From the NCBI GenBank assembly GCA_030636125.1, contig DAOVXM010000175.1, forward strand, positions 1-6,101: a stretch of DNA of 6,101 bases, given 5' to 3'. This stretch comes from Chloroflexota bacterium. GTDB lineage: Bacteria > Chloroflexota > Anaerolineae > Anaerolineales > UBA4823. Positions 2,335 through 6,037 of this stretch are shown piece after piece. The translations under genes and the position numbers were made by a program. The notes beneath the pieces are model-generated. The model did not search any database and was not told where the DNA came from. It was given only the letters and a program-made list of their open reading frames with translations. Numbering within the stretch: position 1 is the first letter of the stretch; every line of letters starts with the position of its first letter.

Positions 2335-3057
2335 GTGCGCACGACATCCACTCCATTAAGTCAGATTTTCAATTGGGCTGTCCGCCACTGGATCATAGTC
2401 TTTGCTGTGCTGTTAGGTCTATATGTCGGATTGCCATTCCTGGCACCGATCTTTATGCAGTTAGGTTGGACCGGGGGAGGTAAAGCCATATATACGCTCT
2501 ACTCCACCCAATGTCACCAACTACCACAGCGCTCATTTTTCCTCTTTGGTGACAAGTTGATGTATTCATTAACTGAAGTACAGGCTGCCTGGAACAACAC
2601 GCTCAACCCCCTCATCCTGCGCCAATTTGTCGGCAACCCTGAGATGGGCTGGAAAGTGGCCTGGTCTGATCGTATGGTTTCGATGTACTCCAGCATCTTG
2701 GTCTTTGGCTTATTATGATGGCCATTTCGCCAGCGCATCAAACCGCTACCTTGGTGGGGCTTTATTCTTCTGACCATACCCATGGCTATTGACGGCATTA
2801 CTCACCTCATCAGCGATTTTGCTGGACTCGGCCAAGGTTTTCGTGACAGCAATGCCTGGTTGGCAGCTTTAACCAAGAACGCATTACCCGCCACTTTTTA
2901 CGCCGGCGATTCTATCGGGTCCATTAATTCCTGGATGCGACTGGTCACCGGCGTTCTTTTTGGGTTAGCTATTGTCTGGTTTGGCTTTCCCTATATAAAT
3001 GACTGGCTTGAGGATATTGCCTACCCGATCGAACCCGGGCATCCTAAGAATACATAA
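2335..3057 (+). CDS. DUF2085 membrane protein, interrupted by an in-frame TGA
   Basis: The frame from GTG 2335 to the TAA at 3055 would give 240 residues and reads as one DUF2085 protein, except for TGA at 2716-2718 (codon 128). Features in order are a transmembrane helix at about 19-41, the family signature C60-H-Q-L-P-Q-R-S67, G-W-K-V-A-W-S-D-R-M (about 105-114), a helix ending L-L-TGA-W-P-F-R, P-M-A-I-D-G (149-154) and a C-terminal helix (about 205-225). Family-like sequence runs on both sides of the TGA in the same frame with no indel. The break is therefore a single-codon event: a nonsense mutation of Trp or Cys, a read error, or recoding. The start is the first possible one after a TAA at 2320, but its Shine-Dalgarno site is poor. 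The gene lies 55 nt after the DUF3105 gene. DUF2085 has no settled function. Confidence 0.7.
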
Positions 3058-5625: not shown

Positions 5626-5646
5626 TTTATCGATATCGTAGATTAC

Positions 5647-5650
5647 GGAG
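5647..5650 (+). promoter_or_regulatory. Shine-Dalgarno site pointing to an ACG start
   Basis: GGAG is followed by a 6-nt gap and then ACG at 5657-5659. The spacing is ideal, and the codons after ACG read K-R-I-T-W-L-F-L, a proper lipoprotein signal start. No ATG, GTG or well-placed TTG exists in this frame after the TAG at 5639-5641. Confidence 0.55.
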
Positions 5651-5656
5651 ATAAAA

Positions 5657-6037
5657 ACGAAACGCATTACATGGTTGTTCCTGGTTTTAAGTTTGGCAAC
5701 CACCCTATTGGGTGCCTGTGGTTCCAGTCCGGGGATCCCAATCACCCCGGCTGCGGATCGCCCAACATTCTTATTCTTCTACACCGACGGTTGAACGCCT
5801 TGAGCCAAGATGGAGCCCGTCGTGAACGAGCTAGAAGTGAATTTCGATGGCCAGATAGATTTTCGCAGCCTGGATGCCTCTGCTGAGGGTAAGGCAGCTT
5901 TTCGAGCTTTCCAGCTGCGCGGCCACCCAGCTTATGTGTTAATCAACCCCTCCGGGGAGGTGCTCTGGTCAGGTTTAGGCGAACAGCCATTAGACAATAT
6001 TACAAAAGCCATAGAAACGGCATTAGATAAACCATAA
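5657..6037 (+). CDS. Thioredoxin-like lipoprotein, candidate UxxU selenoprotein with two in-frame TGA
   Basis: Read with TGA as an amino acid, this gives 126 residues. Residues 1-20 (K-R-I-T-W-L-F-L-V-L and on) are a lipoprotein signal ending L-L-G-A, and Cys21 is the lipidation site. A short linker leads to beta strand R-P-T-F-L-F-F-Y-T-D-G, then TGA46-Thr-Pro-TGA49-A-K-M-E-P-V-V, a long helix, I-D-F-R-S-L-D-A, and R-G-H-P91-A-Y-V-L-I with the thioredoxin cis-Pro. Thioredoxins have W/G-C-x-P-C-K/x-M here, so both TGA codons (5792-5794, 5801-5803) replace precisely the two redox Cys. The frame has no other stop or indel. UxxU diselenide motifs are known in the SelL family. The apparent start is ACG. 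The gene lies 31 nt after the kinase and may share its transcript. The alternatives are Cys-inserting UGA suppression or a decayed gene. The downstream half alone (ATG 5810) would lack the active site. Confidence 0.72.
5814..5832 (+). other. Possible bacterial SECIS-like stem-loop
   Basis: Starting 10 nt after the second TGA, AGC (5814-5816) can pair with GCT (5830-5832), and TCG(T) (5820-5823) with (A)CGA (5826-5829). The loop is small and a 3-nt CCG bulge lies on the 5' side. Bacterial SECIS elements sit at about this distance within the coding sequence. The stem is short and the loop does not show a clear consensus, so this is only a candidate. Confidence 0.25.

Follow-up and report, generated by a model that had tools for sequence, protein, structure and literature searches.

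Membrane-tethered thioredoxin folds of the extracytoplasmic space, such as TlpA, ResA and CcmG, carry a CxxC active site and are reduced by CcdA or DsbD. A UxxU motif, with selenocysteine (Sec, U) at both positions, occurs in SelL, a Prx-like protein with a predicted diselenide. The catalogue of May 2026 lists 119 prokaryotic selenoprotein families, among which UxxU is given only for Prx-like proteins of PF00578, a metal-binding protein and FmdB, the thioredoxin entries (PF00085 and PF13098) are UxxC, and none is a UxxU thioredoxin (PMC13188914, Table 1). Passages of two other papers mention no UxxU proteins other than Prx-like ones and a putative mercuric reductase (PMC9312934, PMC2398784), and terms for a UxxU thioredoxin are absent from the available text of PMC12013277 and PMC5029168. 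Among the results listed by our literature search, with thin coverage of subscription journals, there was no paper on a UxxU thioredoxin lipoprotein family.

The gene described here lies in a 6,101-nt stretch of Chloroflexota DNA (the window) and very probably encodes an exported, lipid-anchored Sec-x-Pro-Sec thioredoxin, in which both UGA codons would be recoded by the Sec pathway with the help of a single bSECIS element and which would cycle between diselenol and diselenide outside the cytoplasm. Its family resembles the catalogued Sec thioredoxin (PF00085, UxxC) and thiol:disulfide interchange protein (PF13098, UxxC) in fold and Pfam assignment, in Sec at the first position and in its expected dependence on a bSECIS, but those entries have one Sec, whereas the small lipoproteins of this family have UGA codons at both catalytic positions. 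With the Prx-like UxxC/UxxU oxidoreductases (PF00578) it shares the UxxU motif and the predicted diselenide but not the Prx-like domain: PF00085 matches 53 of 54 UxxU members at E <= 0.001, PF00578 3 of 54. The metal-binding (NF041115) and FmdB-type UxxU proteins also have two Sec but belong to other families, and neither matched ours among the families listed (25 of 26). TlpA, ResA, CcmG and the DsbD/CcdA reductases share with this protein a membrane-tethered thioredoxin fold in the extracytoplasmic space, but with CxxC; the NCBIfam ResA model scored 16–18 bits against two relatives (L001, L002), with a cut-off of 170. No NCBIfam model scored above cut-off for the window gene or for its relatives L001–L004, which together with the 2026 catalogue (PMC13188914) agrees with the original prediction that this is not a described family.

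A thioredoxin-like lipoprotein gene with two in-frame TGA codons

The gene occupies positions 5657–6037 of the forward strand and ends at a TAA stop (6035–6037). The frame encodes 126 residues and has internal stops only at codons 46 (TGA, 5792–5794) and 49 (TGA, 5801–5803), which we read as Sec46 at the first catalytic position and Sec49 at the resolving position. The two TGAs flank Thr-Pro exactly where C-x-P-C belongs, giving the motif U-T-P-U. The first 63 nt (5657–5719) encode a predicted lipoprotein signal peptide with the lipobox LGA-C, whose Cys21 codon is at 5717–5719, and Gly-His-Pro stands at the cis-Pro position of thioredoxins (residues 89–91, 5921–5929). The frame, coordinates and residues given in the original prediction, of a thioredoxin-like lipoprotein interrupted by TGA at 5792 and 5801 alone, are thus correct.

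Pfam PF00085 (Thioredoxin) scores 31.9 bits on the protein, above its cut-off of 23.5, and PF00578 (AhpC-TSA) gave no match to it at E <= 0.001. An AlphaFold model, built with Cys substituted for Sec, has the strand and helix order of thioredoxin with a mean pLDDT of 86.7 (about 97 over residues 31–120), and its top Foldseek matches in the PDB are thioredoxins. Together these features of the sequence point to a thioredoxin fold carrying signals for export and lipidation.

A usual start codon is missing from the window gene where one would be expected. An in-frame TAG lies upstream at 5639 and the first usual start after it is TTG 5675, with no ATG, GTG or TTG in the frame upstream of that codon; a start at TTG 5675 would lose the basic residues of the signal peptide. 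The codon 20 codons upstream of the lipobox Cys is ACG 5657, where relatives L002, L004, L016 and L017 have ATG, and a Shine-Dalgarno-like GGAG (5647–5650) is found 6 nt before it. Perhaps the gene starts at ACG 5657, the missing usual start reflecting either a rare start codon or a base difference.

Both TGA codons are conserved in relatives

A search of protein databases returned seven homologues including the window's own, all of them fragments of 75–79 residues. Five of these (P0003–P0007) are 72–91% identical to the window copy, and each is a 75-residue fragment that begins after the second TGA. A scan of genome contigs gave four relatives, titled Anaerolineae or Chloroflexi, whose best segments are 39–52% identical and all of which keep both TGA positions. 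We then searched 396 genomes of one Chloroflexota class, as assigned from the title of the L001 record, with a query carrying Cys at both catalytic sites. Some match at E <= 0.001 was present in 322 of the 396, many of these being weaker and lacking TGA, and every one of the best 29 matches listed has exactly two in-frame TGAs. The two TGAs in these 29 matches, recovered with a query that carried Cys, and in the four contig relatives argue that the codons are not products of decay. The pair had been predicted to be more than a chance event, with scattered decay in close relatives as the observation that would count against it; the conserved TGAs uphold the first and speak against the second.

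Including the class search (30 loci) and 60 added loci, mostly best-scoring rows, we read the window and 94 further loci. Weaker rows of the class search, many lacking stops, were left out, so Cys forms are under-sampled in this set. As foreseen in the original prediction, homologues with UxxU, UxxC and CxxC were found, with the catalytic positions in the same register; the form CxxU did not occur among the 94 loci. Two chance matches in L003 and one chance CxxC match (L107) were dropped, and L013 and L014 proved to be the same loci as L001 and L002. Fifty-five UxxU genes, including the window's, were picked by the pattern U-x-x-U followed later by P-x-V. Their two TGAs therefore hold by construction, and the selection-free evidence for both codons comes from the protein search, the contig scan, the class search and the large profile search described below. 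Outside the 55 are L035, which lacks Pro at the pattern position, and L117, whose first 60 bases are common with L114; L090 is absent from the 25 UxxC genes, apparently through the duplicate filter. An x-Pro pair lies inside the motif in 42 of the 55 genes, Gly-His-Pro is present in 53, and the lipobox pattern in 52, the window included, in support of the lipid anchoring originally proposed. The window protein is 26–55% identical to the 53 other members of the family alignment (A4), from which L033 was omitted because of its long extension. The UxxU frame of L033 continues for 219 residues past the second UGA, perhaps as a fused domain. Viral contigs yielded no relative and a plasmid search one weak partial match.

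Automatic annotation cuts these genes in half. In the window, gene finders call a 75-residue ORF at 5810–6037 instead of the whole gene, and the fragment from 5810 that the original prediction expected is the exact content of database entry P0002. When about 5.8 billion proteins were searched with a profile, 92 matched at E <= 1e-12 (3454 candidates, lengths restricted), of which 90 are 69–80-residue fragments following the second UGA and one is an ordinary thioredoxin. P0009, the sole full-length family member among them, is written W-A-P-W, apparently because the TGAs of a UxxU gene were rendered as Trp. The family thus falls in a blind spot of gene calling.

It is very improbable that the window copy is a pseudogene or a sequencing artefact, with at most the short ORF from 5810 as a genuine product. 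The missing usual start, the weak hairpin of the window copy (below) and a TGA at a non-Cys site in the neighboring DUF2085 gene would fit such a reading, but both TGAs are conserved in relatives, the frame has no other stops, and P0003–P0007 all show the same truncation past the second TGA.

A bSECIS-type hairpin downstream of both UGA codons

Downstream of the second UGA we identified a bSECIS-type hairpin at 5815–5831, in which 5815–5820 pairs with 5826–5831, with one C-A mismatch, around the loop CGUGA (5821–5825). The loop starts 26 nt past UGA1 and 17 nt past UGA2. Throughout the family the element is a 6-bp stem with a 5-nt loop reading C-G-U-G-N in 55/55 UxxU genes, and it spans the codons for P-[IV]-V-N/D-G together with one flanking base on each side, namely the final base of the preceding codon and the first of the following one. 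The published bSECIS model calls for a spacing of 16–37 nt, a loop of 3–9 nt and a G in the first two loop positions (PMC13188914, section 5), and the loop and both spacings of the family hairpin fit it. The same model sets a stability limit of −7.5 kcal/mol (PMC13188914). Taken alone, the window hairpin has the geometry of a bSECIS but weak stability, at −4.9 kcal/mol no better than shuffled sequences (z −0.47). RNAalifold recovers the same helix less one pair with a consensus energy of only −0.99 kcal/mol, and an Rfam search of the window up to E = 1 gave no match.

The comparative data for the hairpin are stronger. In the 55 UxxU genes pairing is seen in 94.8% of pair cells, versus 7.6–48.8% with slid partners, and the value is 95.4% when the 25 UxxC genes are added (80 genes). 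Double-changed cells number 13 in the 55 genes and 50 in the 80, each reached by 0 of 500 shuffles, counts of a kind that kinship among sequences tends to inflate. Pairs changed on both sides (14/500 and 126/500 shuffles as high for 55 and 80 genes) and further pair types (241/500 and 492/500) are not unusual. Codon choice within the hairpin is an independent sign of selection on the putative element. In the UxxU genes Ile is ATC in 50/50 cases (background 0.47), Val is GTG in 55/55 (0.36), Gly is GGG in 48/49 (0.23) and Pro is CCC in 50/55 (0.31), along with GAT in 20/20 and AAT in 26/31. When synonymous codons were resampled, the observed mean of 5.69 pairs in UxxU genes compared with 3.75 (sd 0.12) and that of 5.80 in UxxC genes with 3.93 (sd 0.18); ten CxxC genes had 3.50 pairs against 2.75 (sd 0.30, maximum 3.70). 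Since the loop GU is part of the Val codon and occurs in 9 of 10 CxxC genes as well, it is not diagnostic by itself, and the argument rests on the stem and the codon choice. In L035, outside the selection pattern, Leu CTC replaces Pro opposite Glu GAG and all six pairs are kept. The covariation and codon choice, as expected of a bacterial SECIS element, support one hairpin serving both UGAs.

A single hairpin for two codons, with the 17 nt of UGA2 near the short end of the 16–37 nt range, might instead mean that one UGA alone is decoded efficiently as Sec and that at the other, termination or insertion of another residue prevails. We consider this improbable: both spacings are in range, CxxU was not found among the loci read, and a clade of 53 UxxU genes (below) has no UxxC or CxxC rows.

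Selenocysteine genes in the host genomes

Of the 51 genomes that host UxxU relatives, 50 carry one or more of the Sec markers tRNA-Sec, selA and selD. tRNA-Sec was detected in 44 of the 51; in the other seven a laxer search gave weak scores only, as in control genomes below the family cut-off, and four weak loci inspected in hosts without tRNA-Sec are tRNA-Ser or tRNA-Leu. Five of these seven match selA (in G108 partially, 5e-61), and G318 has a selD gene with a TGA. At E <= 1e-60, selA is present in 318 of the 396 class genomes; these 396 include 49 UxxU hosts, of which 46 have it. The genomes of L001–L004 all have tRNA-Sec with anticodon UCA, selA and selD (4/4 each), and selB exceeds its cut-off in two of the four, scoring below it in G001 and G002; in a further check it was below cut-off in 4 of 7 genomes. 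Two hosts whose UxxU contigs are near whole genomes (G354, 3.97 Mb; G231, 4.67 Mb) have tRNA-Sec, selA, selB and selD. In G329 (L023, L150), where a 5.63-Mb contig makes up about the whole genome, searches for selA, selB, selD and tRNA-Sec found none; the genome nonetheless carries a UxxU gene with the hairpin, and its missing Sec genes may reflect assembly loss or recent gene loss. The selD genes of the four genomes behind L001–L004 (L057–L060) have one in-frame TGA each and probably encode Sec-containing SelD.

The distribution of selA differs among the forms. It is found in 22 of 24 UxxC hosts, the remaining two having selD, and in 2 of 7 CxxC genomes chosen by eye (Fisher p 1.7e-4), or 3 of 8 when L103 is added (p 4e-4); L103 lies in a genome with selA (G297) and also holds a CxxC lipoprotein-like gene. 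In the five CxxC genomes without selA, a search for selD likewise found none. The proposal of Sec at both sites is thus supported by the conserved TGAs, by the covarying bSECIS-type hairpin and by Sec genes in the genomes of relatives, and further by Cys-containing relatives that occur mostly where Sec genes are missing.

Reassignment of TGA to Trp or Cys in the hosts, with no role for selenium, is extremely improbable. P0009 is written as though TGA were Trp, but 17 of the 55 UxxU genes have their next TGA after the motif where the gene normally ends, so that TGA is still a stop codon. In addition, the hosts of L001–L004 have a tRNA-Sec reading UGA, and a hairpin would serve no need under reassignment. 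Trp at both catalytic positions would abolish thioredoxin chemistry.

UxxC and CxxC relatives and the probable origin of the second selenocysteine

The UxxU genes have a sister group of 25 UxxC genes (L041, L066, L069, L072, L089 and 20 others) with the hairpin in the same register. Compensatory changes are seen in this group, as in CCU-GUC-GUG-AAC-AGG, where the change of Gly GGG to Arg AGG is accompanied by that of Pro CCC to CCT. Three CxxC genes (L094:851-916, L095:782-847 and L108:872-937) retain 5 of the 6 hairpin pairs in hosts without detected selA or selD, which suggests that they are possible reversions from Sec to Cys following loss of the machinery.

A tree was built from 90 sequences after masking both catalytic residues, with few columns for its many rows. 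In it 53 UxxU genes group together (SH-aLRT 92), with no UxxC or CxxC row inside the clade. Two further UxxU genes, L118 and L119, nest among the UxxC genes, next to sisters of that form (support 92 and 97). Three changes of the UxxU label are required on this tree, two of which are forced by the starred branches. On the simplest reading, UxxC genes acquired a second Sec about three times, each by one codon change under an existing hairpin; one hairpin that serves both UGAs would put the second Sec within reach of such a single change. Probably, then, a widespread Chloroflexota clade has fixed an extracytoplasmic diselenide thioredoxin in which one bSECIS recodes two UGAs nine bases apart, with the second Sec acquired in this way and no Cys form among its 53 members. 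If so, a thioredoxin with selenium in both catalytic residues would be a property of a clade rather than a curiosity, and it would become testable why a diselenide is favored outside the cytoplasm and how one SECIS serves two UGAs. The shared hairpin, the UxxC sister group, the apparent repeated gain of the second Sec and the missing usual start in the window go beyond the original prediction.

Gene neighborhood and possible role

We examined the neighborhoods of 26 loci (L018 and L158 being one place counted twice) and ran Pfam on 30 chosen neighbors. Ten of the 26 loci have a metal P-type ATPase cluster no more than 9 kb away, the E1-E2 ATPase being confirmed by Pfam in L149 and L161. Other recurring neighbors are DUF2085 (7 loci, window included), response regulators (6), DsbA-like proteins (5) and DUF3105 (5), and among the 30 chosen neighbors c-type cytochromes were confirmed by Pfam near 7 loci. 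The order DUF3105, DUF2085, response regulator, histidine kinase, UxxU of the window recurs in L001 with other genes interspersed. In L130 a DsbD_TM ORF, cut by the contig end, starts 1 nt after the UxxU stop. DsbD_TM was found in only 3 of the 26 loci, the others being L002 and L150, where it lies nearby; Pfam showed none in the window. The neighbors in L150 also include TlpA-like, Rieske, DsbA-like and cytochrome c genes.

In the mechanism that we propose, SelA, SelB, SelD and tRNA-Sec (UCA) would recode both UGAs, directed by the single hairpin within the gene, whose position satisfies the published spacing for each. Diselenide formation between the two residues is chemically expected, and outside the cytoplasm the mature protein would most likely alternate between its diselenol and diselenide states. 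It would be re-reduced by a membrane protein of the DsbD/CcdA type, and its electrons would pass to extracytoplasmic disulfides, for instance in DsbA-like proteins, apocytochrome c or copper-site proteins, genes for which lie near some family members. By our estimate there is about an even chance that the protein acts as a selenol/diselenide reductase of the extracytoplasmic space, supplied with electrons by a DsbD/CcdA-type partner and serving cytochrome or copper-protein maturation.

The P-type ATPase clusters could also mean that the double-Sec protein handles metal, with copper or a similar ion bound by the Sec pair, in place of thiol/disulfide exchange. Hints of copper come from a cupredoxin gene (L157), a DUF411 gene (L167) and the weak, below-cut-off match to CopI of a cupredoxin-like lipoprotein in the window, and a metal-binding UxxU selenoprotein, NF041115, is known (PMC13188914). 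This is the main alternative, and we regard it as unlikely: the thioredoxin fold, the conserved cis-Pro position and the x-Pro within most of the motifs favor redox exchange, as do the DsbD_TM, TlpA-like and DsbA-like neighbors, and NF041115 itself is not among the matching families listed (25 of 26).

Other genes in the window

The DUF2085 membrane protein gene of the window (2335–3057) has one in-frame TGA, at 2716–2718. We considered this gene as a second selenoprotein and rejected it, as the aligned homologues have Tyr, Trp, Phe or other non-Cys residues at this position (20 loci aligned, two of them uninformative at the site). The TGA is probably a nonsense change or a base error rather than Sec. 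Given this codon and the missing usual start of the UxxU gene, base errors or decay in the window contig are possible. An ORF at 1299–1646 encodes a Cys-rich stretch (CTCPYHGTEQCNC) that had no Pfam or NCBIfam match. On the minus strand, positions 491–1066 encode the cupredoxin-like lipoprotein, which is rich in His and Asp and is the source of the weak match to copper-resistance CopI.
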